DNA of 29,927 bases from a virus (IMGVR_UViG_3300044634_000537:1-29927); one strand, 5' to 3'. Positions 11,309 to 29,114 are shown, counted from the stretch's first letter. Notes: generated by a model not told the origin, from the letters alone. Translations and numbers: made by a program.

Positions 11309-11338
11309 GAATGAAGGGACATTCCTGTCCCTTTGTTC
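11309..11338. repeat. 30-bp variant of the palindrome family
   Basis: The two 13-base arms (left GAATGAAGGGACA, right TGTCCCTTTGTTC) flank a four-base centre. The ends GAA...GTTC and inner ACA...TGT match the 29-bp family found further right, but the CCGACA block is GGGACA and the spacer is one base longer. It ends 36 bases before the start at 11375, and a small CGGGC/GCCCG hairpin follows it directly. Confidence 0.55.
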
Positions 11339-11374: not shown

Positions 11375-12145
11375 ATGGCAAACAAAGCCACTCAAGCGGT
11401 TACTGCGCCCGCACAAAGCGCAGTTGGTTCCGTGGTCGAGTCGATCTGCGGCCGTTCCTTGGTCGAAGCACAATCCTCTCTTGAGGAAATCTTTGGTAAT
11501 GCGGCTGACGCTGAAAAGCTGATGTCGCGTGGTCAAGACGCGCGCGATGCGGCTGATGCCCTGCTGTTGGATTGGCTGTGCCAGTGGGAAACAGTAGACG
11601 GCAAGTTCGTCAAAATGCGTCGCGCCAAGTGCGACATCAAGGGCGAGCCCGTCTTGAAGGATGGCAAGCCGATCATGGCGTTCGTGCCTATCTCTTACCC
11701 TGAGTACCTTCAGGTTCGGACATGGGGCGTGGCCAAGTACTTTGACTGCGGCGCGGCATCTACTGATGCGGCTGACAAGCAATTCGAGCGGCAAGTCAAT
11801 AGACTGGTCGGGCTTGGTTTCGAGCGGCCTCGTTCTAAGTCGGTCGATGCTGAGCGCATGGCGGCTAAGCGTGCGGCTGATGCGGCTAAGTTCGCGGACA
11901 AGGGCGATGGCGAGTTGGCCGACCTGAAAGCCGAGCTGGTCGCAAAGGGCGATGTCAAGTCGATGCGCGAGGCCACGGCCATTGCGAAAGAAATCGAGCG
12001 CAGGGAAAAGCCCGAGCTAGAACAGTTGCAGGCTGACATCAAAGTCATCCATGAGGCCTTGCGCAAGCGTGCGGCTGAGTGGGCAAAAGCCGGTTCGGTC
12101 GAAAGCCTCGCGCGTTTGACTGCGGCCTCTTTGGCCTTGGGCTAA
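11375..12145 (+). CDS. hypothetical Ala-rich helical protein
   Basis: I do not recognise the family of this 256-residue protein. The N-terminal part has a short mixed region around WLCQWETVDGKFVKMRR and SYPEYLQVRTWGVAKYF. The second half (about 140-256) is almost entirely charged helix rich in Ala, Lys, Glu and Asp, such as ERMAAKRAADAAKFA, suggesting a coiled coil. The start at 11375 has TTGGAG eight bases upstream. It is the first rightward gene after the divergent region and has higher GC, with more GCG/GGC codons, than the replication genes. With the next two genes it may form an accessory cassette ending in terminators. Confidence 0.75.
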   Translation: MANKATQAVTAPAQSAVGSVVESICGRSLVEAQSSLEEIFGNAADAEKLMSRGQDARDAADALLLDWLCQWETVDGKFVKMRRAKCDIKGEPVLKDGKPIMAFVPISYPEYLQVRTWGVAKYFDCGAASTDAADKQFERQVNRLVGLGFERPRSKSVDAERMAAKRAADAAKFADKGDGELADLKAELVAKGDVKSMREATAIAKEIERREKPELEQLQADIKVIHEALRKRAAEWAKAGSVESLARLTAASLALG

Positions 12146-12148
12146 CCC

Positions 12149-12346
12149 ATGAGCGGGCGCGACATTCATGCCGTGCCCGCCTACGGGCGGGACTATAAAT
12201 CTGCGGCCGCTGTTAAGGCGGACTGGCAAGCGGGCAAGGATTTCCGCTGTGCCGTTTCGGGTCAATACTTGAGCGTTCGGGATGCCGTGCCCGCTCAGGT
12301 CTGGATTCGCTACGCCAAGCTTTCCAAGCTTGTGCGCGTTCATTAA
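12149..12346 (+). CDS. hypothetical small protein
   Basis: The 65-residue basic protein (MSGRDIHAVPAYGRDY...YAKLSKLVRVH) has no family I recognise. It follows the 256-residue gene by three bases, so translation is probably coupled. The rho-independent terminator begins seven bases after its stop, and codon use matches the gene before it. The AGKDFRCAVSGQYLSVRDA segment might form a small beta unit. Confidence 0.65.
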   Translation: MSGRDIHAVPAYGRDYKSAAAVKADWQAGKDFRCAVSGQYLSVRDAVPAQVWIRYAKLSKLVRVH

Positions 12347-12353
12347 CCTTCAC

Positions 12354-12373
12354 GCCCCTTCGGGGGCTTTTTT
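12354..12373 (+). terminator. rho-independent terminator with TTCG loop
   Basis: A GCCCC/GGGGC stem (12354-12358 with 12363-12367) closes a stable TTCG tetraloop and is followed by six T residues. It ends the transcript of the two preceding genes. Confidence 0.85.
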
Positions 12374-12385
12374 CTGGAGTTTTCC

Positions 12386-12556
12386 ATGCGTACATTTTTG
12401 TCTTGGGTTGGGTTTGCGTCTTTGCTGATGGCCATCGTGTCGATTGGTTGCGGGCTTTTCGGGCTCATTGGCGCGGTCGAGATGCTGGTCTTTGTGATAA
12501 CTTTTATTGGGCTTCATGTCCTGATTCTTTGGGAATTGGAATACACACCTGACTAA
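12386..12556 (+). CDS. small two-helix membrane protein
   Basis: A 56-residue protein starts at an ATG with CTGGAG seven bases upstream. Nearly the whole chain is hydrophobic: one helix covers about residues 5-30 (SLLMAIVSIGCGLFGLIGA) and a second about residues 32-50 (EMLVFVITFIGLHVLILW). It ends in the acidic ELEYTPD tail. It sits alone between two TTCG-loop terminators, which suggests separate control, perhaps read-through of the first. Holin-, antiholin- or exclusion-like functions are possible, but nothing in the sequence decides. Confidence 0.7.
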   Translation: MRTFLSWVGFASLLMAIVSIGCGLFGLIGAVEMLVFVITFIGLHVLILWELEYTPD

Positions 12557-12561
12557 CCTTT

Positions 12562-12587
12562 GGGGGCTTCGGCCCCCGATTTTTTTT
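12562..12587 (+). terminator. strong rho-independent terminator with TTCG loop
   Basis: A perfect GGGGGC/GCCCCC stem (12562-12567 with 12572-12577) with a TTCG loop is followed by GA and eight T residues. It lies six bases after the stop of the small membrane gene. Confidence 0.9.
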
Positions 12588-12634
12588 GGCCTGCGCGACG
12601 GCGCGGCCCGCCCTGATGCCAGTCACTTGGTGGT

Positions 12635-12974
12635 AGTAACGCGGTAGCTCTGTTCTTTAGAATAGATTGTGGCAGTAACGCGGTAGCCTTGGCGAGCGCG
12701 GCTGGCTTGGCGGTGAGTCGCCCGCCCCGCCCGTATCGCTAGATACCAGTCACAGGTAGGAACGGGGTAGCCTTGCATTGCGGGCAAAGCGAACAAAGCG
12801 ACACATTGTCGGTTTGTTCATTACTTTTAGTTATGACGCAGACCGCTTGGCCCGCCCACCAAGTGCAAAGCGGGCGTCGCTTATACCGCATTGCACGGCT
12901 TGGTTTATCATTCCAGCGGGCATTGCCCCTCCAAACGCATACTTTAATCTTCATTAACCCAGTAACGCCGTAGT
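12635..12974 (+). repeat. four copies of a 14-bp iteron-like repeat
   Basis: AGTAACGCGGTAGC occurs exactly at 12635-12648 and 12674-12687. Related units lie at 12758-12771 (AGGAACGGGGTAGC) and 12961-12974 (AGTAACGCCGTAGT). The first and third are also preceded by CCAGTCAC, so the full unit may be longer. All four share orientation. Confidence 0.65.
12791..12819. repeat. 29-bp palindrome, copy 1
   Basis: Thirteen-base arms GAACAAAGCGACA and TGTCGGTTTGTTC flank a three-base centre; one arm position (8/22) does not pair. This is the only family member without a start codon nearby: the next gene begins 557 bases later. It lies between the third and fourth 14-bp repeats. Confidence 0.85.
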
Positions 12975-13121
12975 TTCCACCCCGTAGCAACTACATCTTA
13001 TACCGTATATCGTTACTAACTATATCCTATCCGACCCCTCCCGCAAGGCGGCGCTAGTGCGCAAGCCCCGAATTTCCTAGGTTTCTCTATAATAATAAAA
13101 TAATTTAATATAATATATAAG

Positions 13122-13258
13122 ACGTTGTTCCTGAAATGGGCATAGTATAAAGCGGGTCTAGGAATCTCCCCTCCAAACATAGAAAAAGTTGAGAATAGCG
13201 TGTTTCACCTCTCGCCCTCTTTCTCCCGTTCTCACTATCTCAATTTCAGGAACAACGT
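13122..13258. repeat. 16-bp perfect inverted repeat, 105-bp loop
   Basis: ACGTTGTTCCTGAAAT (13122-13137) is exactly repeated in inverse orientation at 13243-13258. The 105 bases between arms hold no gene. The left arm directly follows the AT-rich tract. It could be an origin structure, the ends of a small lost element or a long-stem RNA. Confidence 0.7.
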
Positions 13259-13298
13259 TTTATACCCTTTATCTTATCCCGATAAACCCTTACCCCTA

Positions 13299-13326
13299 TT
13301 GACAGCCACGCCAAATATAATAGAAT
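13299..13326 (+). promoter_or_regulatory. possible sigma-70 promoter for the HNH-like gene
   Basis: TTGACA (13299-13304) is followed after 16 bases by TAGAAT (13321-13326). It lies about 50 bases before the start at 13377. The perfect TATAAT next to it is only 11 bases from the -35, so the first pairing is preferred. Confidence 0.5.
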
Positions 13327-13376
13327 TACCACGGATATATGGTATACGGTGTAAAACTCTCAAAAAGGAAATTTCC

Positions 13377-14039
13377 ATGCCCCGCCCTCAAAAGTACCTC
13401 AACGCTGACAACCTCTTGGACAACTGCGAGGTCAAGAACCTTTGCTATGTCTGGCCTAAGTCATCCTGTTCTCTGCCCATGCTCTCCCCTCATTCGCCCC
13501 TGACATACAAGTTCAACACAAACGCTGTCTTGCGTATCCTGTTCACGATCTGCCGCTTCCCGCCCGCTGGCCCACGCTTGATGAACATGTGCGGTACGAA
13601 GTGGTGCGTCAATCCGTACCACCATTGCGAGTCCAAGATGTACAGGGTCAAGCGGTTTGCGTCAGGCTTCCCCAACGATCTGTTGCCCGAGCAAGAATCC
13701 ACCCGCCACCTGATCGCCCCGCCCGATGACGAGTTGATCGACATGCGCCCCAAAGACCCGCGCCATATCAAGATACTGATGGACAGTGCATCCCTCGCGG
13801 GCTACGACACCGATGGAATCCTCAAAACCAAGGGATTCGCTATTCCCAAGAATAAGCGCGACCTACCCACGGCTACGGAAGGCAAGCCCGTGCTCAAGAT
13901 CAAACTGCGGGATGAGCCGAAACCAGTCACCCAAGAGGTGAAGGATGAGGGGCCGTCATGGGACGAGATCGAATTTGGGTTGGACCAAATGATCGACCAC
14001 ATCTCCGCGCAACGCAAAGCTAAGTCAGAACGAAACTAG
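13377..14039 (+). CDS. HNH/His-Me finger-like protein of unknown role
   Basis: The 220-residue protein has a motif reminiscent of zinc-bound HNH or His-Me finger nucleases at about residues 72-83: CGTKWCVNPYHH, comparable to the CxxxxCVNPxHL segment of such enzymes. The preceding region around RILFTICRFPPAGPRLMNM would carry the first strand. The C-terminal half (about 110-220) is charged and without a known domain. The start is set by AAAAAGGAAA before ATG at 13377. The gene sits between the possible origin and the MoxR module. A nuclease acting in replication or packaging is one option, but catalytic residues cannot be assigned with certainty. Confidence 0.6.
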   Translation: MPRPQKYLNADNLLDNCEVKNLCYVWPKSSCSLPMLSPHSPLTYKFNTNAVLRILFTICRFPPAGPRLMNMCGTKWCVNPYHHCESKMYRVKRFASGFPNDLLPEQESTRHLIAPPDDELIDMRPKDPRHIKILMDSASLAGYDTDGILKTKGFAIPKNKRDLPTATEGKPVLKIKLRDEPKPVTQEVKDEGPSWDEIEFGLDQMIDHISAQRKAKSERN

Positions 14040-14079
14040 CGGGCATGGGAACTTCATGTTTAAAACACGAACGACCCCC

Positions 14080-14108
14080 TTGACAAATGAGTTATTTTGT
14101 GGTACAAT
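14080..14108 (+). promoter_or_regulatory. consensus sigma-70 promoter of the MoxR/VWA segment
   Basis: TTGACA (14080-14085), a 17-base spacer and TACAAT (14103-14108) form a near-perfect host promoter. It is about 140 bases upstream of the first gene of the segment. Strong early transcription by host polymerase is expected unless repressed. Confidence 0.85.
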
Positions 14109-14126
14109 GTATCTTTAGATACATTG
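14105..14126. promoter_or_regulatory. operator-like palindrome over the promoter start site
   Basis: CAATGTATC and GATACATTG form nine-base arms around TTTA. The palindrome overlaps the -10 hexamer and covers the expected transcription start, the usual place for a repressor operator. It is unrelated in sequence to the 29-bp palindrome family. Confidence 0.7.
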
Positions 14127-14187
14127 GTGAGTGATGACGACGACACCACATCTAAAAGCCGCAGGTGTGCGAAAGCGCACCGATGCT

Positions 14188-14216
14188 GAACATTCCGACA
14201 TCATGTCGGTTTGTTC
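14188..14216. repeat. 29-bp palindrome, copy 2
   Basis: Arms GAACATTCCGACA and TGTCGGTTTGTTC flank TCA, with arm mismatches at positions 6 and 7. It lies in the leader between the promoter at 14080 and the first gene, and ends 31 bases before the ATG at 14248. Confidence 0.9.
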
Positions 14217-14247
14217 GGCGATTCAAAGTCCTTTATTGGAGATCATT

Positions 14248-14472
14248 ATGAAGATAGCAACTGACAACATGACTGACCTGTCATGCACCAACGAGAAACT
14301 GATCGAGGTCCACAGGGCCATGCGCGATGTCGCACAGCTTTGGGTGTCGGGCCTTGTTACTGACAAGGAAGTCGCTGACAGCTTTGCCAGCGTGTCCGTG
14401 TTGTTCGCCCACTACCAACGCCTTGGCTTGACCAGCGGCTTGATCGACCCCAACACCGGTCTTCGTTACTAA
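14248..14472 (+). CDS. hypothetical small helical protein
   Basis: The 74-residue protein (MKIATDNMTDLSCTNEK...GLIDPNTGLRY) is mainly helical, with a hydrophobic middle (VAQLWVSGLVTDKEVADSFASVSVLFAHY). No family is recognised. The ATG at 14248 is preferred over in-frame starts from 14131, since it has TTGGAG upstream and leaves the palindrome in the leader. Its stop overlaps the next start (TAATG). It is the first gene of the segment. Confidence 0.7.
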   Translation: MKIATDNMTDLSCTNEKLIEVHRAMRDVAQLWVSGLVTDKEVADSFASVSVLFAHYQRLGLTSGLIDPNTGLRY

Positions 14473-14756
14473 TGCTATATCCCATTTCTACAGAATTGGA
14501 TGACGATCAACGACAGGGTTGTGATCGTTTCGAATGGATGTCGTGCACCCATTGTGGGGACGATGTCCATGCACAACGCTGGGCTCTTGGCTACAGGTTG
14601 TGTTTACATTGCGGGCAAGACGCCGCAATCTCTGACCGCGCATCTTGGTGTGTGGTGCAGACATACGGCAAGGGGCCGTACATGCTCGTTACACCAGAAG
14701 CCGCGCCGCAGGTTCTGATGGACACGAATCAGAAAAACACCCGCTCATCGAACTAA
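14472..14756 (+). CDS. zinc-ribbon protein, unknown function
   Basis: The 94-residue protein has two CxxC knuckles, CTHC (about 25-28) and CLHC (about 44-47), separated by 15 residues around WALGYR. This is the layout of a small zinc ribbon, as seen in DNA- or RNA-binding and protein-interaction modules. The C-terminal part contains a YGKGPYMLVTP segment. It starts one base inside the stop of the preceding gene. Its own stop codon lies within the left arm of the next 29-bp palindrome. I recall similar proteins in aquatic phages, with no known function. Confidence 0.7.
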   Translation: MLYPISTELDDDQRQGCDRFEWMSCTHCGDDVHAQRWALGYRLCLHCGQDAAISDRASWCVVQTYGKGPYMLVTPEAAPQVLMDTNQKNTRSSN

Positions 14757-14778
14757 CCGACATGGTGTCGGTATGTTC
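14750..14778. repeat. 29-bp palindrome, copy 3
   Basis: Arms GAACTAACCGACA and TGTCGGTATGTTC flank TGG, with mismatches at positions 5 and 6. The TAA stop of the zinc-ribbon gene is formed by the variable bases of the left arm. It ends 29 bases before the ATPase start. Confidence 0.9.
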
Positions 14779-14807
14779 TTGTAAATCTTTCTTATCAAGG
14801 AAATCAA

Positions 14808-15887
14808 ATGTCAAACGAGATCAACTTCATGCGCAGACTCAACTTCACCGAGACTGTTGACCTGCTTCTTAACGCGGGTCCTAACGCAGTGCACCTTACT
14901 GGCGAACCCGGTGTTGGCAAGACTGCCATTCAGGACACAATCGTTGAGCGCACAGGCTACCGCAAGGTGTACATCGACGGACCAAACACCGATGTCGGCC
15001 AGTCTGGTATGCCAATCCCCAACCACGCGACTCGCACCTTGGACTTCTACCCAACCGATTACTACGGCTTGCACCTTGACGAACCGCAAGTCATCATGAT
15101 CGACGAGTGGACAAAGACCGAGGACTACACGCGTAACACGCTACACCCCCTGTTGCATGAGCGCAGACTAGGTACTTACAAACTGCACCCCGAGACTATC
15201 GTCTTCACGACGGGCAATATGGACAGTGATGGCGTGGGCGACCACACCAAGGCTCACACCCGTAGCCGTCAGACCGAGATCAACTACTTCAAGCCAACGG
15301 CTGAAGAGTGGTTGCGTTGGGCGGCGAACAACGATGTAGCACCTGAGATGCAAGCGTGGGTCAAGGAATACCCGCACTGCATGGCGTCCTACTTGGATGG
15401 CGGGCAGAAAGAGAACCCATACATCTTCAACCCCACCGATGCGTCACAGAAGGCGTACTTCTGCCCCCGCACTGCGTACAAGGCCTCGCATTGGATTACT
15501 GTGCGTCAAAACATCACAGAGAATGCGTTGATCGCGGCACTTGATGGCACTATCGGGCGGGCGGCGTCGCGTGATTTGCAAGCGTACATCTCGCTCGCAG
15601 ATCAGCTGCCGATGACTGATTCCATTCTTGCCAACCCTGAGTCTGCGCTTGTCCCCACCAGCCCAGCGGCTCAATGTATCTTGGCGTTCAAGGCTGTGTC
15701 TGTGTCTACCCGTGAGACATTCGCCACATGGATGCGCTACATCAAGCGGCTGCCCAAAGAAACTCAGGCTGTCTTCATCAACAGCATCCTCGAGATTCCC
15801 ACAAAGAAAGCATGGGTCATGTCTCATCCCGCCTTTGTTACATGGGCGCGTGAGAATCAGTACATGTTTGCCGGATTGAAAGGTTGA
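14808..15887 (+). CDS. MoxR-type AAA+ ATPase
   Basis: The 359-residue protein carries Walker A GEPGVGKT (32-39), Walker B VIMIDE (95-100) and a sensor 1 TTGN (134-137), followed by an SRQTE segment that may supply arginine contacts. The domain order and size fit MoxR/CobS-type AAA+ proteins, which use ATP to remodel partners and act with VWA proteins. A VWA/metallopeptidase gene follows 0.8 kb downstream, and a DUF3150-like gene lies beyond it, supporting a joint complex. The region after about residue 220 has no known domain. The start at 14808 has AAGG upstream. The target is unknown. Confidence 0.85.
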   Translation: MSNEINFMRRLNFTETVDLLLNAGPNAVHLTGEPGVGKTAIQDTIVERTGYRKVYIDGPNTDVGQSGMPIPNHATRTLDFYPTDYYGLHLDEPQVIMIDEWTKTEDYTRNTLHPLLHERRLGTYKLHPETIVFTTGNMDSDGVGDHTKAHTRSRQTEINYFKPTAEEWLRWAANNDVAPEMQAWVKEYPHCMASYLDGGQKENPYIFNPTDASQKAYFCPRTAYKASHWITVRQNITENALIAALDGTIGRAASRDLQAYISLADQLPMTDSILANPESALVPTSPAAQCILAFKAVSVSTRETFATWMRYIKRLPKETQAVFINSILEIPTKKAWVMSHPAFVTWARENQYMFAGLKG

Positions 15888-15889
15888 GC

Positions 15890-15982
15890 ATGAACGACAA
15901 AACTTTCAACGCTATGTTGTACACGTTGGTGGTGATCGGTTTGGTCATCGTCGGGCTAGATGTTTTTTACTGGAGACCATGA
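15890..15982 (+). CDS. 30-residue single-helix membrane peptide
   Basis: The short frame reads MNDKTFNAM, then a hydrophobic helix (LYTLVVIGLVIVGLDVFYW) and ends RP. It starts two bases after the ATPase stop, and its end overlaps the next start. A membrane micropeptide is plausible because the frame is conserved in spacing with its neighbours, but its size makes it uncertain. Confidence 0.5.
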   Translation: MNDKTFNAMLYTLVVIGLVIVGLDVFYWRP

Positions 15983-16140
15983 ACATGACACCAGCAGAGC
16001 TTTACGATGCGCTCGACAAAGCGGGCGCGGACTACGAGATTGTCCAAATCTTTGATGGTGTGCGCATCATCAGTGTGCAGGTAAACGACGAACAAAACGA
16101 CACGGTGTCGGAATGTTCACCAACAACAGGAGAGAAATAA
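15979..16140 (+). CDS. small protein whose 3' end contains a palindrome
   Basis: The 53-residue acidic protein begins MNMTPAELYDALDKAGADYE and contains a hydrophobic strand (IVQIFDGVRIISVQV). The last third of the gene (NDEQNDTVSECS) is encoded by the 29-bp palindrome itself, so DNA constraint may dictate that peptide. It overlaps the previous stop by four bases, and its own stop overlaps the next start (TAATG). No family is recognised. Confidence 0.6.
   Translation: MNMTPAELYDALDKAGADYEIVQIFDGVRIISVQVNDEQNDTVSECSPTTGEK
16090..16118. repeat. 29-bp palindrome, copy 4
   Basis: Arms GAACAAAACGACA and TGTCGGAATGTTC flank CGG, with mismatches at positions 6-8. It lies inside the coding end of the small gene 15979-16140 and ends 21 bases before the next ATG. 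Confidence 0.9.
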
Positions 16141-16385
16141 TGATTACGAATATCACTGAAGCAAAGATCGTATGGCGTGGCATGGTCGCCACATACAAGC
16201 GTATGCAAGACCATACCCACAAGCTGATCTACAACAAGAAAGCCACAGCGGGCGAGGTGTTGGAGTCTCGCGGTTTGACATTGCAAGCCACAACAATCAT
16301 GGCTCGCATGGCCAAGCAGTTGGATGCTCAGTTCCCTGAGTATGAGTTTGATATGGAAGGTAAATCTGTGAGGGTTAAACGATGA
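16140..16385 (+). CDS. hypothetical small protein
   Basis: The 81-residue basic helical protein (MITNITEAKIVWRGMVATYK...YEFDMEGKSVRVKR) has no family I recognise. AGGAGAGAAATA precedes its ATG; the same leader of 15 bases recurs before the gene at 25070. The start overlaps the upstream stop and its own stop overlaps the next start (ATGA), so translation is coupled on both sides. Confidence 0.7.
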   Translation: MITNITEAKIVWRGMVATYKRMQDHTHKLIYNKKATAGEVLESRGLTLQATTIMARMAKQLDAQFPEYEFDMEGKSVRVKR

Positions 16386-16525
16386 CGCATGAACAGATCA
16401 TTGCGAGTATTTACGATCACGGCATGAAGCTGGCCGAGCTTCTCAGGAAGCTAGGCAAAGACGAGGAAGCCCACTACCTTGAGTTGTGGGTGTTGGAAGT
16501 TAAAGCAAATGGAGATGTCAAATGA
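16382..16525 (+). CDS. 47-residue hypothetical protein
   Basis: The acidic helical peptide begins MTHEQIIASIYDHGMKLAELL and ends in VLEVKANGDVK. It is defined mainly by ATGA overlaps with both neighbours, which leave no other frame open across this stretch. Function is unknown. Confidence 0.6.
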   Translation: MTHEQIIASIYDHGMKLAELLRKLGKDEEAHYLELWVLEVKANGDVK

Positions 16526-16707
16526 TTGAAGTATCAATCACAGAAATAATTTTGTTTTGTTGGGCGGTATTGGCGACAGCCTTTGCCCTTAAATACAAAC
16601 AACAAGAGTATGGGGCCAAGATTTTTATCAAGGCCCTAATGGAGGATGACAAGATGCGCGACGCCCTCGTCGCGGATTTCAAAGCACACATGAAGGAGAC
16701 ATCATGA
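16522..16707 (+). CDS. small membrane-anchored protein
   Basis: The 61-residue protein has one N-terminal membrane helix (ITEIILFCWAVLATAFAL, about 6-23) followed by a charged helical tail (YGAKIFIKALMEDDKMRDALVADFKAHM). It has ATGA overlaps on both sides. GGAG lies upstream, in the end of the preceding gene. It directly precedes the VWA gene, so it might anchor that module to the membrane, which is a guess. Confidence 0.65.
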   Translation: MIEVSITEIILFCWAVLATAFALKYKQQEYGAKIFIKALMEDDKMRDALVADFKAHMKETS

Positions 16708-17996
16708 GTATTGCAGTTGTCAGAAGTAAATTGCCAGCCGAGAAACGAATCGAGCTGGTTCATGTGAGCCTGATGCGAGAGAAGTCGTTTGCCTTCTTCG
16801 CGGGCTTGTTCATGGTCGGGTCTACCACAGTAACCGATCAGAAGATCACAGCGGGCACGAACGGCAGGGACGCTGTGTATGGCAGAGAATTCGTTGACTC
16901 TTTGACTGACAAAGAGCTGGCGTTTCTCATCATGCACGAGAACATGCACAAGTGTTACCGACACCTGACCACATGGAAAGCATTGGATGCTATTGACCGC
17001 AGACTTACGAATGCGGCGTGTGACTTTGTCATCAACATACAGTTGTATGACATGGACCCAGAAGAAAAATTCATAGCCTTTCCCCGTTCTAAAGAAACAG
17101 GTGAGCGTGAGGGTCTCTTCGACGAGGCGTATCGTGGCATGGACACCAAGCAGGTCTTCGACATCCTCTTGAAGAAAAAGAAAGAAGGATGCGATGGTGA
17201 TGGTCCGCCCATTGATGGTTCGGGTCGTGGTCCAAAGCGTGACGGGCAAGACGGAACAAAAGGACAAGATGTCGATTTGTTCGGTGAGGGCGATGTCGGT
17301 TTCGACAACCACGATTGGGATGGCGCACAAGCCTTGAGCGAGGAAGAGAAGAAGCAACTCGATCAGGAAGTCGAGCAAGCTATTCGTCAGGGCGGTATCT
17401 ATGCGGGCAAGTTTGGCGGCAAGACACCACGCGAGATTGGCGAGCTACTCAATCCCAAGGTCAGTTGGAAAGATGTACTCCAACGCTTCGCCCGTTCTCA
17501 CATCAAGGACAGAGACTCAATCTCTTGGCGCAAGGCGCATCGCAACTTCCTTTGGCAGGATGTGATATTGCCTAGCATCATCGGCAAGCGAGTGAAGTAC
17601 TTGGTTTTGGCGATGGACACATCTGGTTCTGTGGAAGGGCCGTTACTCACAGAGTTTCTCTCTGAGATGAACGGGCTTGTCAAGAGCATGGGCATAGACC
17701 GACTAGACATCGTGTATTGGGACGCTGAAATTCAAGCGCACGAAATCTTTACTGGTGGTGTGAAAGACATCGTGCATCGCACCAACCCCAAGGGTGGTGG
17801 CGGCACAAACCCAGATGTTGTGGTTGACCTGATGGTAGAGAAGCAGTTGAAGCCTGATGCGCTGATCATGTTGAGTGATGGCTACATGCACACCAACAAG
17901 AGCAAGTGGGCGGCTGTTACTGCGCCTACCTTGTGGTGCATCATCGGTAACGACAGCTACGAGGTCCCCAATGGACAGAAGCTTGTTGTTATATGA
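16704..17996 (+). CDS. DUF2201-like metallopeptidase/VWA domain protein
   Basis: The 430-residue protein has two domains. The N-terminal part carries the zinc-peptidase motif HENMH (78-82) and a downstream NAACDFVIN segment whose Asp107 could be the third ligand, as in DUF2201 N-terminal domains. An acidic, Gly-rich linker (about 160-210) follows. The C-terminal VWA domain has the MIDAS motif DTSGS (305-309), the Thr in GGGGTNP (about 368) and the Asp in LSDG (about 392). Such proteins pair with MoxR ATPases, and one is encoded upstream. Proteolytic or chaperone action on a target is inferred. The gene contains a degenerate palindrome copy within the linker. Confidence 0.85.
   Translation: MSIAVVRSKLPAEKRIELVHVSLMREKSFAFFAGLFMVGSTTVTDQKITAGTNGRDAVYGREFVDSLTDKELAFLIMHENMHKCYRHLTTWKALDAIDRRLTNAACDFVINIQLYDMDPEEKFIAFPRSKETGEREGLFDEAYRGMDTKQVFDILLKKKKEGCDGDGPPIDGSGRGPKRDGQDGTKGQDVDLFGEGDVGFDNHDWDGAQALSEEEKKQLDQEVEQAIRQGGIYAGKFGGKTPREIGELLNPKVSWKDVLQRFARSHIKDRDSISWRKAHRNFLWQDVILPSIIGKRVKYLVLAMDTSGSVEGPLLTEFLSEMNGLVKSMGIDRLDIVYWDAEIQAHEIFTGGVKDIVHRTNPKGGGGTNPDVVVDLMVEKQLKPDALIMLSDGYMHTNKSKWAAVTAPTLWCIIGNDSYEVPNGQKLVVI
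17254..17282. repeat. 29-bp palindrome, intragenic copy 7
   Basis: Arms GAACAAAAGGACA and TGTCGATTTGTTC flank AGA. It matches the family consensus at about 25 of 29 positions, with the conserved ends and inner ACA...TGT kept. It lies inside the Gly/Asp-rich linker of the VWA protein and is the only copy well within a large gene. Confidence 0.7.
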
Positions 17997-18411
17997 CGAC
18001 GACCCGCATGTCGAGTGTGGGGAGTGGTATCACATTGCTGAGCACCATGTCCCCATGCTTGTCAAGGGTGAGGTGAGGTTCCTCCATGACCATGTCTACT
18101 TCTATGTTCGCGTCAACCCAGCGGGCTTGAAGTTGATGATGGACATAGATGGCGATGCTCTCTTCCACCCGACAGAGATTCATCATCTTGGTTTGCGAGC
18201 GGCGATAACCAATGCTCGCTTAACGGATGATGATCTCGTTACAGTCGCTGGGCTCGAAGAGTTTCGGTGGTTCTTAGCCAAGCGACCCATACATACATAC
18301 GACAAGTATGTAATGTCGTTTATCACGGAGGGCATGGCCTGCATTGTGACTTGTCACGAAGACAGCCCTTTATTTTCTTGGTTCCTTGTATTAGGAGGTA
18401 CAAATGGATGA
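17971..18411 (+). CDS. hypothetical protein overlapping the VWA gene
   Basis: The 146-residue protein begins MDRSLLLYDDDPHVECGEWYHIAEHHVPM and is an alpha/beta-like soluble sequence with several His and Asp residues. No known domain is evident. The ATG at 17971 has GAGG seven bases upstream and overlaps the VWA gene by 26 bases; a longer frame from 17875 lies wholly in VWA sequence and is unlikely. Its stop overlaps the next start by eight bases, with the AGGAGG site of the next gene in its coding end. Confidence 0.7.
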   Translation: MDRSLLLYDDDPHVECGEWYHIAEHHVPMLVKGEVRFLHDHVYFYVRVNPAGLKLMMDIDGDALFHPTEIHHLGLRAAITNARLTDDDLVTVAGLEEFRWFLAKRPIHTYDKYVMSFITEGMACIVTCHEDSPLFSWFLVLGGTNG

Positions 18412-18658
18412 TCAGGTAATTCTCTTTATTGGAGATAAGAGGTTCTTGTTGAGCATGGATGAAGCCTTGAGTATTTCAAGGGTGCTGTGCGGTGCGTCAC
18501 GCATACACAACGCATGGATTCAAGGACAGGACTCAAACAAGTGCAACGCAATAGGTGACCCCGACCCACAGGCGGCGACCATCGCGCCTATATCGGGTGT
18601 ACTGCAACTTGAGATCGACAGCAACATGAAGATTCTTGCGGAGAAAAACAAGCGATGA
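18404..18658 (+). CDS. hypothetical small protein
   Basis: The 84-residue protein starts MDDQVILFIGDKRFLLSMDEALSI after a perfect AGGAGG site, so it is probably well translated. It has a beta hairpin-like N-terminus and a Pro/Ala-rich middle (GDPDPQAATIAPI). No family is recognised. ATGA couples it to the following ribbon-helix-helix gene. Confidence 0.7.
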   Translation: MDDQVILFIGDKRFLLSMDEALSISRVLCGASRIHNAWIQGQDSNKCNAIGDPDPQAATIAPISGVLQLEIDSNMKILAEKNKR

Positions 18659-18816
18659 CTAACTCAAAAACTGGGTACTCAGTGACCCTTAACAAAGAAA
18701 CCTTTGATCTCTTACAAGTCGTGAGAGGCCAACTCATTGGTGCAATGGGCTTCGAGCCCACAAACGGACAGGTGGTTCGCCACCTTATTTCTCTCTTTAT
18801 TGAAAGGAAAGCGTGA
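18655..18816 (+). CDS. putative ribbon-helix-helix DNA-binding protein
   Basis: The 53-residue protein fits the Arc/MetJ-type fold. A short strand (GYSVTLN, about 7-13) is followed by helix A (ETFDLLQVVRGQLIGAMG), a turn with Pro-Thr-Asn, and helix B (GQVVRHLISLFIERK). Such proteins dimerise through the strand, which inserts in the DNA major groove, and often bind palindromic operators. It overlaps both neighbours (ATGA and TGATG). Its location inside the palindrome-containing segment makes it a candidate binder of those sites. The fold call is by pattern only. Confidence 0.55.
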   Translation: MTNSKTGYSVTLNKETFDLLQVVRGQLIGAMGFEPTNGQVVRHLISLFIERKA

Positions 18817-19871
18817 TGGGATACGCAAGTTATTACAGCAACTACAACACAGCGGGCGTGGTGATGCGTCAGTCGTTCGCTGAGTATGTTGCGAAGTTCA
18901 AGAACACCAAGCCGATCAACAGCAAGCAGTCAAACTATGCTGTGCCACTTGGTAGTCGCAAGCATTGGAACATGGCGAGCATCTCCATGCCTGATGACGA
19001 CACGGTCTGTCTGAATTACTACAAGCACCCGCTTGTGGTTTGGAAGTCGGACGACACATTCACGATTCATTCTCCCGTGTACTACTCTGCGTATGTGCCC
19101 AACAACATCCAGCAATTTGTTCCGATGGGGATTGGCTTCAGTTGGGACAAGGGCCGATTGTTGGTGACCAGCAACATGGGCGAGAAGTCTTACATATTGC
19201 GAGCGGGCGAGACGATCAAGTTTAGAAAGACGGGTGATTCTTTCGAGATGATTGATGTTCTCGTGGAGTACGCTATCCGAAAGATTCGCGGGTCGGAGAA
19301 GAAGTATCTCAAACTGTGCGAGCCGTTCCTTGAATGGGTTGATCTGGTGCAGTCCATTGCGCCCGAGACCAATGACCAAGCCGTTAAGGAAGTCGAATCG
19401 TCCAAGGGTATCTTGTTCAAAGCGGTTGGTTTGATGGACGAGGATGAATATGAAGCGTTCACGAAGACCAAAGCTTGGAGTGAATCGCCAAACAGATGGG
19501 ACATCAACCACAGCAGACAGCACTTTCCTCATGGCGGTAGCGCAAACTGGCGTGGTGCGAGACACAACGGATTCGACAGAAACGGATGCGCTAAGTTGTA
19601 CGAGTGGGTCACAGGCCCGCTAAGCGACAACTGGGTACATGCGTTGAATGTACTCAAACATCATGAAGCAGAGCGCAAACACTATCGGGTTGCAGACAAG
19701 CACTGGGGTGTTAATTTTGTACTGAATCGTGAGAAAGCCGTGAAGTATCTCGGTGACATTGCGCTGTTCTTGCACTTTGATGACTGCTTTAGGAAAGTCC
19801 CTTTAGCCGTGGGCGAAGTGCCAACCAAACAGAACTCTGAGTTTCTAACGGAACTCGGACCTGTGCTTTGA
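18816..19871 (+). CDS. conserved hypothetical phage protein
   Basis: The 351-residue protein (MGYASYYSNYNTAGVVM...) is a large soluble sequence rich in aromatic residues. Its first half looks beta-rich (YAVPLGSRKHWNMASISM and VPMGIGFSWDKGRLLVTS). A helical section around EYAIRKIRGSEKKYLKLCEPFLEW and a His/Trp-rich C-terminal half follow. No known domain is recognised. ATG at 18816 is chosen; a GTG one codon earlier is possible. Its TGA stop overlaps the first bases of the next palindrome. Context suggests it belongs with the MoxR/VWA genes. Confidence 0.7.
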   Translation: MGYASYYSNYNTAGVVMRQSFAEYVAKFKNTKPINSKQSNYAVPLGSRKHWNMASISMPDDDTVCLNYYKHPLVVWKSDDTFTIHSPVYYSAYVPNNIQQFVPMGIGFSWDKGRLLVTSNMGEKSYILRAGETIKFRKTGDSFEMIDVLVEYAIRKIRGSEKKYLKLCEPFLEWVDLVQSIAPETNDQAVKEVESSKGILFKAVGLMDEDEYEAFTKTKAWSESPNRWDINHSRQHFPHGGSANWRGARHNGFDRNGCAKLYEWVTGPLSDNWVHALNVLKHHEAERKHYRVADKHWGVNFVLNREKAVKYLGDIALFLHFDDCFRKVPLAVGEVPTKQNSEFLTELGPVL

Positions 19872-19898
19872 ACAAACCGACATGGTGTCGCTTTGTTC
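19870..19898. repeat. 29-bp palindrome, copy 5
   Basis: Arms GAACAAACCGACA and TGTCGCTTTGTTC flank TGG, with one unpaired position (8/22). The upstream gene stop overlaps its first two bases, and it ends 31 bases before the next ATG. Confidence 0.9.
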
Positions 19899-19929
19899 GT
19901 TTCTAAACCAACCTATCTTGGAGAGATAA

Positions 19930-20802
19930 ATGCAAACTTTTGAAACCCCATCCATATCGCTCGCTTCTATGGCGATGCTTGTTGAATTGCGTATCAGTAC
20001 ATGGACTGCTCGCAAGCGCGATAAGGAAACCACTGCGGACTTGAACACAGCCAAAGAAGCTGACCAAGACGCAAGCTCTGTCTACAAGTACCTCATGGCG
20101 GGCAGTGATCATCTCAGCAAAATAGAGAAGTATGCGGCGAAGTGCCGCGCGTGGAACGGCACACAGACTCTGCCGTGGATGAAAGGCATTGGCTTGTTGC
20201 CGATGGAGAACTTCTTTGCGTATCGTGAGCAACTCGGGACGATGGAAGCCAACTTCAACGCTTTAGTCGATGACTTCATACTAGCTTATCCGACGTTGGT
20301 TAGCGCCCAAGCCTTCAAGCTCGGCAAGTATTTCGACGCATCAGAGTTTCCTGATGTGGCGTCATTGCCCCGTCGCTTCAAGTTTGAGTACAACTTCCTT
20401 CCTGTTCCAGAGAAGGGTGACTTCCGTATCCAATGCGAGGACAAGGTGCGTCAAGACTTGGCCGAGCAGTACGACAAGATGTTCAACAACAAGATGAACG
20501 AGGCCATGCGTGACCCTTGGACACGACTGCACAAGATGCTGTCGAGAATGAGTGAAACGCTGACCGACAACGAGGACGGCAAGCGCAACATATTCAGAGA
20601 CAGTCTGGTCAACAACGCCTTGGAGTTGTGCGGTCTGTTATCTGTGCTGAATGTGATGAAAGACCCAGCGCTTGAAGAAGCTCGTCGTATGCTGGAGAAA
20701 GCGATCAACGGCATTGACCCCGAAGACCTACGCAAGATACCTAGCGCTCGCGCTGAGTTGAAGCATAGCGTCGATGACATCCTTAACAAATTTCAATGGT
20801 GA
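19930..20802 (+). CDS. DUF3150-like protein
   Basis: The 290-residue protein has an N-terminal segment like DUF3150 (LVELRISTWTARKRDKET, about 17-34), then a mostly helical body, with a motif around LPRRFKFEYNFLPVPEKGDFR (about 146-166, split by turns). DUF3150 proteins are often found next to CobS/MoxR-type ATPases and CobT-like VWA proteins, and both are encoded upstream here. A structural or adaptor role in that complex is a reasonable inference. The start at 19930 has TTGGAGAG upstream. The family call is moderate, based on remembered pattern. Confidence 0.6.
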   Translation: MQTFETPSISLASMAMLVELRISTWTARKRDKETTADLNTAKEADQDASSVYKYLMAGSDHLSKIEKYAAKCRAWNGTQTLPWMKGIGLLPMENFFAYREQLGTMEANFNALVDDFILAYPTLVSAQAFKLGKYFDASEFPDVASLPRRFKFEYNFLPVPEKGDFRIQCEDKVRQDLAEQYDKMFNNKMNEAMRDPWTRLHKMLSRMSETLTDNEDGKRNIFRDSLVNNALELCGLLSVLNVMKDPALEEARRMLEKAINGIDPEDLRKIPSARAELKHSVDDILNKFQW

Positions 20803-21680
20803 ACCGCATGACACAGTTTGCAAACATTCAATTACCTGACAACCGCATCCTTGACCCGATGCTTGATGAACTGGTGCGTAAGCTCGCGCTCGACAACTCG
20901 AACTGGATATTCTCTTGGAAGAGACACGACCAGTGGAATTACACCAACGCTATGGGCAACAAACGAAATGCCGACGGGGACTTAATCACCGCACCCGATG
21001 GCAAGCAGTTTCTCAGACGAGTCAATGTCATAGCGGGCGGGGAACAGCTTGGTAGTATCTCTGTGAGTCACAGGTACGGGCGCAAGAACACCGACACCTA
21101 TGACATCGAGTCGTGGCGCATTGAGAAACAGCGAGGCTCGCGACATGTTACAAGTACCGAGAAGCTTGATATTGCTGTCCGCAAGATCAAGAAGTTGTTT
21201 GTCAAGATGAACTACGACGAGATCATCAAAAAGGCAGACGATGAGGCGCGTAACGCCACCTACTATTCCTTGCGTGACTTGAAGGCTCCGATCAGTAGAT
21301 CAGCTATGATCAAAGATGAAGTGATGTTACAGAAGTATGTGTTCTGTGTAGTCCGGAACTTGCCCATACCTGACGGCATAAACAGGCCGGTCAGAGATAT
21401 CTTTGAGTCGCCCAAGTACGAGGAGCACATGGCTCAGTATGAGTTAGCGATGGAGATGGAGCAGCTTTTGGCCAACGACGGAATGACGACTGTGTGTATA
21501 CACAACGGGCTGTACTTGTACAAAGACAAGCAAACAGACAACATAGAAGTTATGGAGTTTGACCAACTGTCTGAGACATGGCAGAACCGCTTAGCTGTAC
21601 TACAGCTTATGCAAGACGGAGAGGTAGTGCGTGATGTAGGCTTTAGATACAACGACACTAATTTCCACATCGTCATATAA
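20796..21680 (+). CDS. conserved hypothetical phage protein
   Basis: The 294-residue protein begins MVNRMTQFANIQLPDNRILDPML. It mixes beta and helical segments, including SWKRHDQWNY and a KADDEARNATYYSLRDLK helix. No catalytic motif is visible. The start at 20796 overlaps the previous gene by seven bases, and an ATG at 20808 is the alternative; neither has a strong ribosome binding site. It is the last gene before the terminator at 21702 and probably part of the same functional group. Confidence 0.7.
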   Translation: MVNRMTQFANIQLPDNRILDPMLDELVRKLALDNSNWIFSWKRHDQWNYTNAMGNKRNADGDLITAPDGKQFLRRVNVIAGGEQLGSISVSHRYGRKNTDTYDIESWRIEKQRGSRHVTSTEKLDIAVRKIKKLFVKMNYDEIIKKADDEARNATYYSLRDLKAPISRSAMIKDEVMLQKYVFCVVRNLPIPDGINRPVRDIFESPKYEEHMAQYELAMEMEQLLANDGMTTVCIHNGLYLYKDKQTDNIEVMEFDQLSETWQNRLAVLQLMQDGEVVRDVGFRYNDTNFHIVI

Positions 21681-21701
21681 CTTAACAGCTACACCCTTTA
21701 C

Positions 21702-21728
21702 GACCCGCCTATGTGCGGGTCTTTTTTT
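21702..21728 (+). terminator. strong rho-independent terminator
   Basis: GACCCGC (21702-21708) and GCGGGTC (21715-21721) form a perfect seven-base stem with a CTATGT loop, followed by seven T residues. It ends the MoxR/VWA/DUF3150 transcript 21 bases after the last gene. Confidence 0.93.
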
Positions 21729-21732
21729 GCCT

Positions 21733-21761
21733 GAACAAACCGACACGATGTCGCTTTGTTC
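21733..21761. repeat. 29-bp palindrome, copy 6
   Basis: Arms GAACAAACCGACA and TGTCGCTTTGTTC flank CGA; the arms are identical to copy 5. It lies four bases after the terminator T-run and 31 bases upstream of the -35 hexamer of the next promoter, so here it acts outside the preceding transcript. Confidence 0.9.
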
Positions 21762-21792: not shown

Positions 21793-21821
21793 TTGACAAA
21801 GTCTAAAGCCACCCCTATATT
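21793..21821 (+). promoter_or_regulatory. consensus sigma-70 promoter of the replication operon
   Basis: TTGACA (21793-21798), a 17-base spacer and TATATT (21816-21821) precede the nuclease-polymerase genes. The 13 bases TTGACAAAGTCTA and the block TAGAGGCCATA recur at the promoter near 29086. Confidence 0.85.
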
Positions 21822-27694: not shown

Positions 27695-29089
27695 ATGCAA
27701 GAATACACATGGCCGCGCCCTATGGGGTTTGAGCCTTTTGATCATCAGAGAGCAACAGCATCCTTCCTCGTGGCCAACCACCGCGCCTTTTGCTTCAACG
27801 AGCAGGGCACAGGTAAGACAGCCTCAGTGATTTGGGCCGCTGACCAACTAATGAATGCGGGTATTGTCAAACGTGTTTTGATTGTGTGCCCGTTATCAAT
27901 CATGCAGTCTGCATGGCAAGCTGACTTGTTCAAGTTTGCTGTGCACCGATCTGTAGATGTGGCGTATGGGGATGCCAAGAAGCGGGCGAAGATCATCAAG
28001 AGCAAAGCCCAGTTTGTAATCATCAACTACGACGGATTGACAACCATTGCAGACGAGTTGCTGAACAACGGTAGCTTTGATTTGATTGTCATCGACGAAG
28101 CCAACGCGTACAAGAACGTCCAGACCAAACGCTGGAAACTCATGAACAAATTGGTGAATTTGTCGTTTTCCCCATTGAACACCCGCTTGTGGTTATTGAC
28201 GGGCACACCTGCTTCTCAGTCTCCGCTTGATGCGTACGGGCTTGGCCGGTTGTGTGCCCCCCAGAGAGCACCAAGGTTCTTCGGTGACTACCGCGAGTCT
28301 GTCATGCAACAGATGAGCATGTACCGTTGGATTCCACGCCCACACGCAGAGCAGATCGTGTTTGACATGCTTCAGCCAGCGATCCGGTTTACCAAGGAAG
28401 AATGCCTTGATTTACCTGATGTCATTCACACCAGCCGCTACGCACCACTAACACCATCTCAGAGTAAGTATTACAAGATGCTCAAAGATCAGATGTTGCT
28501 TGAGGCGGCGGGCGAAGAAGTCAGTTCGGTCAATGCTGCGGCAAAGATGAACAAGCTGCTCCAGATTTCCTGCGGGGCGGTTTACAGCGACACGGGCGCA
28601 GTCGTTCAATTTGACGTGTCCAACCGGCTAAATGCTGTGAAAGAAGTGATTGAAGAGGCCAGCCATAAAGTTCTGGTGTTTGCCCCATTCAAACACACCA
28701 TAACATTACTGAGCGAGTACCTTACAAAGGAAGGTATTACTTGTGAAGTGATCAATGGCGATGTCCCCGTACAAGCGCGTACAAGGATATTCAAGAGCTT
28801 CCAAGAGTCAAAAGACCCAAGAGTGCTTGTGATACAGCCACAAGCGGCGGCACACGGGGTTACCCTGACGGCGGCAAATGTCGTGATCTGGTACGCTCCT
28901 GTCACGTCCACAGAGACGTATCTGCAAGCCAACGCCCGTATCAATCGCCCGGGCCAGCGCAACAACATGACCATAGTGCACATCGAAGGGAGCCCCATCG
29001 AGCGCAAGCTATACACCATGTTACAGAGCAACATAACGAACCACGAAAAAGTGGTCGATCTTTACAAAAAAGAATTGGCAGATACTTGA
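27695..29089 (+). CDS. SNF2-like superfamily 2 helicase
   Basis: The 464-residue protein has motif I GTGKT (38-42), motif II DEAN (134-137), motif III LLTGTPASQSP (about 168) and motif VI QANARINRPGQ (about 411-421). It also has a Q-motif-like FDHQRATASFL near the N-terminus. These mark a compact SNF2/RapA-type DNA translocase without accessory domains, common in phage replication operons. It probably remodels replication or recombination intermediates. The start lies three bases after the HNH-like gene and has no clear ribosome binding site, so coupling is likely. Its stop codon lies within the -35 of the next promoter. Confidence 0.9.
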   Translation: MQEYTWPRPMGFEPFDHQRATASFLVANHRAFCFNEQGTGKTASVIWAADQLMNAGIVKRVLIVCPLSIMQSAWQADLFKFAVHRSVDVAYGDAKKRAKIIKSKAQFVIINYDGLTTIADELLNNGSFDLIVIDEANAYKNVQTKRWKLMNKLVNLSFSPLNTRLWLLTGTPASQSPLDAYGLGRLCAPQRAPRFFGDYRESVMQQMSMYRWIPRPHAEQIVFDMLQPAIRFTKEECLDLPDVIHTSRYAPLTPSQSKYYKMLKDQMLLEAAGEEVSSVNAAAKMNKLLQISCGAVYSDTGAVVQFDVSNRLNAVKEVIEEASHKVLVFAPFKHTITLLSEYLTKEGITCEVINGDVPVQARTRIFKSFQESKDPRVLVIQPQAAAHGVTLTAANVVIWYAPVTSTETYLQANARINRPGQRNNMTIVHIEGSPIERKLYTMLQSNITNHEKVVDLYKKELADT

Positions 29090-29114
29090 CAAAGTCTAGT
29101 AGAGGCCATATAAT
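29086..29114 (+). promoter_or_regulatory. perfect consensus sigma-70 promoter
   Basis: TTGACA (29086-29091), a 17-base spacer and TATAAT (29109-29114) match the consensus at all twelve positions. The helicase TGA stop is embedded in the -35. It should drive strong transcription of the last two genes, if not repressed. Confidence 0.9.

Follow-up and report, generated by a model that had tools for sequence, protein, structure and literature searches.

Dispersed 29-bp two-fold symmetric sites and a candidate regulator that diverges with their spelling in an uncultured clade of phages

The window, which is the whole stretch of DNA analysed here (an IMG/VR record of 29,927 bases), covers about one half of a genome some 60 kb long. 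Between the terminase operon and the VRR-NUC/polA operon it carries seven 29-bp sites (Table 1). The earlier note had described seven interrupted palindromes with invariant blocks, and exact matching found the blocks GAAC-N5-GACA-N3-TGTCG-N3-TGTTC in all of them at the positions given. Since a C precedes GACA in six of the seven copies, TGTCG is not fully mirrored. With a weight matrix built from the seven copies, the copies scored 38.7-46.1, whereas no other position of the window exceeded 6.3 and no shuffled window 7.1; the sites are real, exact and far above chance. The absence of copies from the left arm and after 21.8 kb also held for intact copies, and near-complete relatives (63.6 and 58 kb) also have the motif within about 10 kb only. 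We add a decayed eighth copy with its right half-site intact, for which orthologous intact copies exist 5' of the same gene in five relatives (L097, L102, L107, L109 and L110). That gene, at 11375-12145, is the first plus-strand gene adjoining the terminase operon, and its product is hereafter called the slot protein.

Several other features were observed in the same region. About 850 bp (12346-13200) contain no convincing gene and hold three 19-mers, GTGGTAGTAACGCGGTAGC (12630, 12669 and 12753), adjoining operator 1; this stretch is a possible replication origin. A 31-nt inverted repeat (13116-13146 and 13234-13264, 87% complementary) straddles the start of the 13200 ORF. A conserved 94-aa protein with a zinc ribbon like the DksA/TraR finger is encoded at 14472-14756 and was found in 44 MoxR loci and in G004.

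Table 1. Putative operators and neighbouring features of the window
Feature	Coordinates	Strand	Remarks
Decayed operator AATGAAGGGACATTCCTGTCCCTTTGTTC	11310..11338	no strand	Right half-site intact; precedes ATG 11375
Candidate operator-binding protein	11375..12145	+	256 aa, new family (alignment A2); tracks spelling; AF2 pLDDT 87.4
Operator 1	12791..12819	no strand	Non-coding region
Sigma70-type promoter TTGACA-N17-TACAAT	14080..14108	+	Upstream of operator 2
Operator 2	14188..14216	no strand	31 nt 5' of ATG 14248
Operator 3	14750..14778	no strand	29 nt 5' of MoxR/AAA_5 start (14808)
Operator 4	16090..16118	no strand	21 nt 5' of the start of a gene with its own SD
Operator 5	17254..17282	no strand	Within VWA (DUF2201) gene, codon phase 1; phase 0 in other lineages
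Operator 6	19870..19898	no strand	31 nt 5' of DUF3150 gene start (19930)
Terminator-like hairpin and T run	21702..21728	+	Directly 5' of operator 7; read from sequence
Operator 7	21733..21761	no strand	Between terminator and polA-operon promoter
Promoter TTGACA-N17-TATATT, VRR-NUC/polA operon	21793..21821	+	3' of operator 7

When this genome and related phages were scanned for the motif, the sites recurred across a clade in several spellings. The window-type pattern was present in 20 viral contigs, all of which except G018 form one phage clade by shared proteins, with a TerL nearest to those of DSL-LC04 and HTVC027P. As read from these contigs, the operator set recurs in an uncultured clade of ~60-kb phages. 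The relatives keep the 13-3-13 architecture at the same gene boundaries, with a spelling that differs between genomes and is uniform within each. All 43 copies in six window-type genomes retained the G and C (G10 unchanged), whereas in four other genomes, whose loci had been fetched by protein and not by motif, all 22 copies read CAACA (CCAACA) in both arms where the window has CGACA (CCGACA). A de novo search for the shape only gave 13-3-13 families of 3-11 copies at matching gene boundaries in 47 of 48 MoxR loci (MoxR identity 69-100% in all but a fragment), spelled GAAC-CGACA, GAAC-CAACA, GAAC-CGAA(A/T), GGA(A/C)-TCGACA, GGAA-CCCTT and in other ways; families reached at most one copy in 30 Markov shuffles and two in the named relatives.

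The earlier note had proposed a dimeric protein without naming it, and the evidence indicates the gene at 11375-12145, which was present in all 36 MoxR loci that extend that far. Divergence of the slot protein correlated with motif distance when TerL distance was taken into account (partial Mantel 0.515, P = 0.0002). The best values among the 12 other families were 0.22 for DUF3150 and 0.18 for MoxR, and those of the genome neighbours of the slot gene (TerS and the 13200 gene) were negative. The HNH-like gene 13200, the zinc-ribbon gene 14472, MoxR, VWA, DUF3150, TerS and others were rejected as candidates, as they tracked the spelling weakly or not at all after TerL distance. Furthermore, only the slot protein, among 16 conserved families, has a homologue in the otherwise unrelated motif phage G018 (E = 4.9e-6), a 12.8-kb phage fragment that shares no other protein and carries four motif copies around this homologue. 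A second homologue was detected in G017 (E = 1.6e-7), both searches using a profile that excluded G017 and G018. No hit better than E = 7 was obtained in DSL-LC04, 023Pt_psg01 or HTVC027P. Correlation across related genomes is not the same as binding; the sequences tie the sites to this gene, and from this tie we infer that its product binds them physically.

The slot protein gave no significant match in Pfam, PHROG, PDB or BFVD and no match in 50,697 phage records, mycobacteriophages included. Its AF2 model is helical with a long C-terminal helix (pTM 0.60), fold searches with both slot-protein models returned no known fold, and its best PDB profile match was a weak one to a RepA winged-helix domain (E = 0.07). 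Class-2 slot proteins have S151 where 26 of the 28 others have R or K, and they also have R145 and Q150 in common; residues 145, 150 and 151 are located where a predicted helix ends and immediately after it. We predict that the region around 145-151 reads base 10.

Relatives that have MoxR and TerL and lack the 11375-12145 gene carry in its slot an unrelated protein of ~165 aa (alignment A3; profile comparison with the slot protein, probability 0.1), for which the model was poor (pLDDT 72.9). These loci have 8-16 TAACA-N1-2-TGTTA sites in the same block and no 29-bp sites, and TAACA-TGTTA sites numbered zero in every locus with the first slot protein. When TerL loci extending at least 3 kb past the slot were compared, 17 of the 19 that have the slot gene carried the 29-bp family, as against none of the 11 that encode the alternative protein (Fisher P = 1.4e-6); L202 and L207 were the two exceptions. 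The centre of the TAACA sites is one or two bases long, in agreement with the subfamily to which the second protein belongs, L178 being the only exception. Phages with the same genes that seemed to be without the motif thus have either re-spelled sites or, where the slot protein is a different one, a substitute set, suggesting that the slot can pass to an unrelated protein that brings operators of its own. This exclusive alternative set, the uniform spelling within each genome and the candidate regulator are new relative to the earlier note. In L202 (1690-4429), a remote slot-protein homologue occurs with four GGACATTCTGAGCATTGGTCATTTTGTC-like repeats; these may be yet another operator code, one whose centre is wider.

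The positions of the sites were compared with those of promoters. Near 271 sites in 41 loci there were 55 strong sigma70-type promoters, none of which overlapped a site, and their -10 elements fell in two zones, 21 to 100 bp before the start of a site or 60 to 99 bp after it; 174 of the 271 sites lie 10-49 nt before an SD-start. These positions and the lack of overlap are unsuited to promoter occlusion and suited to a roadblock against polymerase arriving from upstream, which they fit and do not prove. We propose that each of two identical subunits, or each of two pairs, would read one 13-bp half-site in the major groove at two blocks, GAAC and CGACA, which an A/T-rich spacer sets roughly one helical turn from each other; the three central bases would be free. 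Because the sites occupy gaps between early genes or positions shortly 5' of them, with a strong sigma70 promoter upstream or a terminator immediately before, the bound protein would most likely block elongation, stalling the host RNA polymerase as a stoperator-like roadblock. The early block would be shut down once enough protein had been made, the copy 5' of its own gene would provide autoregulation and the site behind the terminator would back the terminator up, with the protein and the operator spelling diversifying together.

We give a probability of about 0.65 to this reading, in which the sites are operators of the phage regulator encoded at 11375-12145, acting most likely as stoperator-like roadblocks in early-block shutdown and autoregulation. 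Against it stand the lack of a recognised DNA-binding fold in the slot protein, the fact that L202 and L207 have just a remote homologue and lack a 13-3-13 family, and the decay of the window's own autoregulatory copy. The same protein and sites might instead serve replication start, partition or packaging by coating or looping the 10-kb block, in the manner of Rep or ParB on dispersed sites. The RepA match and the long C-terminal helices of the model agree with such a role, as do the several placements of the sites relative to promoters and the non-coding stretch with its three 19-mers near operator 1. However, a purely structural role would not need so many sites shortly before an SD-start, and the sites are confined to one transcribed block, so we consider it unlikely.

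A host regulator that the phage borrows could also read the sites, as conserved phage operators can be host-derived. The re-spelling follows a phage gene, however, and a scan of one genome each from 84,980 species yielded only three exact matches, each at a near-perfect palindrome locus, which makes a host reader very unlikely. The bacterial matches, one of them near-perfect palindromes beside an integrase, were set aside as apparently unrelated. At L083:2505-2657, in a gammaproteobacterial MAG, three GCGACA-N3-TGTCGC-type palindromes ~62 bp apart adjoin a tyrosine integrase.

Among 62 non-redundant copies, all aligned to the direction of the genes, the two half-sites prefer the same GAAC-WWW-cCGACA and the three central bases are free. 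The earlier note held that changes in one arm are usually unmatched in the other, and the effect was stronger than claimed: matches between the arms at positions 5-9 were below chance (167 versus 186 +/- 6.3 expected, P = 0.0006). The deficit persisted with permutation within genomes (156 versus 179.5 +/- 5.7), and over 254 sites of all spellings the spacers matched 498 times against 582.6 +/- 11.2 expected. Orthologous sites are non-independent, which makes the P values too small, yet every class gave the same sign. Such a symmetric preference without pairing is the mark of a two-fold symmetric protein on DNA, and the concerted change to the same letter in both arms genome-wide supports this as well. 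The avoidance of full palindromes may reflect selection against hairpins or cruciforms. The copy within the VWA gene holds its position in codon phase 1 (GTKGQDVDLF) or phase 0 (EQSDGESDSS), depending on the lineage, showing that the DNA is selected and not the peptide, and operator 7, lying between a terminator and the polA-operon promoter, is in neither main transcript. Taken together, these sequence patterns give good support to the view that a two-fold symmetric protein recognises the DNA, which the earlier note had preferred over an RNA hairpin. None of the findings that the note had named as telling against its view was obtained. A hairpin in each leader, serving as a translational operator, RNase III site, nut-like site or N4-type hairpin promoter, would suit the 5-bp stem and 3-nt loop to which CGACA-N3-TGTCG could fold and the position of most sites shortly 5' of a start codon. 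It would also call for compensatory arm changes, of which there were none, matches being rarer than chance; preferences are palindrome-symmetric even at unpaired positions, and neither the two codon phases nor the copy behind a terminator and before a promoter is expected of it. We regard an RNA element as highly improbable.

The N4-like hairpin promoter had been considered because N4-like phages often carry MoxR/VWA relatives and because of the 5-bp stem with a triloop; it was rejected on the anti-covariation and on the lack of polymerase motifs. No T7-like virion RNA polymerase was found to be encoded, and T7-like motif B or C is absent from a 2335-aa protein that resembles the N4 vRNAP family in its N-terminal part only. 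This polyvalent protein (L048:1972-8979, G001) has LPD39, a DarB-like region and a metallopeptidase-like HEALHAA motif.

Finally, binding of the 29-bp sites by a 74-aa HTH_3 (Cro/CI-like) phage protein, which has a recognisable HTH and is conserved across the clade in nearly all these phages, is highly improbable, since its recognition helix is identical in G013 (class-1) and G024 (class-2), whose sites all differ, making it a very unlikely setter of the spelling; it also occurs in phages with TAACA sites and its partial Mantel value is 0.295 versus 0.466 for the slot protein. Across the -35 element and spacer, the strong promoters have TTGACA-N2-GTCTA in common (21793-21805 and 29086-29098), with one to three copies per relative and no difference between class-1 and class-2 genomes; this may be the site of the near-invariant HTH_3 protein.

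Our reading is thus of a new family of phage regulators whose operators diversify along with them and probably act as elongation roadblocks of the stoperator type, and the pattern points to an undescribed way of controlling early phage genes. More tentatively, and with considerable doubt, phages without a detected integrase may carry an immunity-like specificity system, in which regulator and dispersed operators form coupled, mutually exclusive codes, the whole set can be replaced by that of an unrelated regulator, and re-spelling is driven by selection against shut-off by a co-infecting relative. If the phages are strictly lytic, the question is why they carry immunity-like specificity groups. 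With dozens of orthologous regulators and an operator set for each, these phages provide a naturally occurring collection of protein-DNA codes. In one case the switch is cleanly confined to a single letter, CGACA becoming CAACA in each arm of all copies, and the residue changes specific to the class are few (R/K to S at 151 is one). Confirmed binding would establish a new DNA-binding protein family and would allow tests of the way in which a regulator changes in step with its full set of dispersed sites.

Among named phages, the closest by TerL (52-56% identity) are DSL-LC04, 023Pt_psg01 and Pelagibacter HTVC027P, which are without the slot protein and without a dispersed 13-3-13 family of at least three copies. 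Dispersed inverted-repeat operators in a phage early region are shared with phiC31, whose repressor acts at conserved inverted repeats (CIRs); phiC31 differs in being a temperate phage of Streptomyces with shorter repeats tied to early promoters. Among the papers found on dispersed phage operators, only the mycobacteriophage systems came out as close comparators. In cluster A mycobacteriophages (L5, Bxb1 and TipsytheTRex), dispersed sites occupy short intergenic gaps, the site motif and the repressor diverge together, and the stoperators have been proposed to be a roadblock to polymerase (PMC6550527, PMC9283540). Cluster A phages are temperate and have 20-30 asymmetric 13-bp sites, oriented with transcription and bound by a monomer, whereas the sites described here are two-fold symmetric with the same preference in both half-sites, 29 bp long (11-12 bp in the alternative set) and present in 3-16 copies in one 10-kb block. 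No tyrosine integrase was found in nine long contigs, and the slot protein has no detectable relative in the libraries searched, showing no homology to cluster A repressors in the phage records, Pfam or PHROGs. What the two systems have in common is many dispersed sites, mostly in short intergenic gaps, a single phage protein for which they are the apparent targets, and a motif that diverges together with that regulator.
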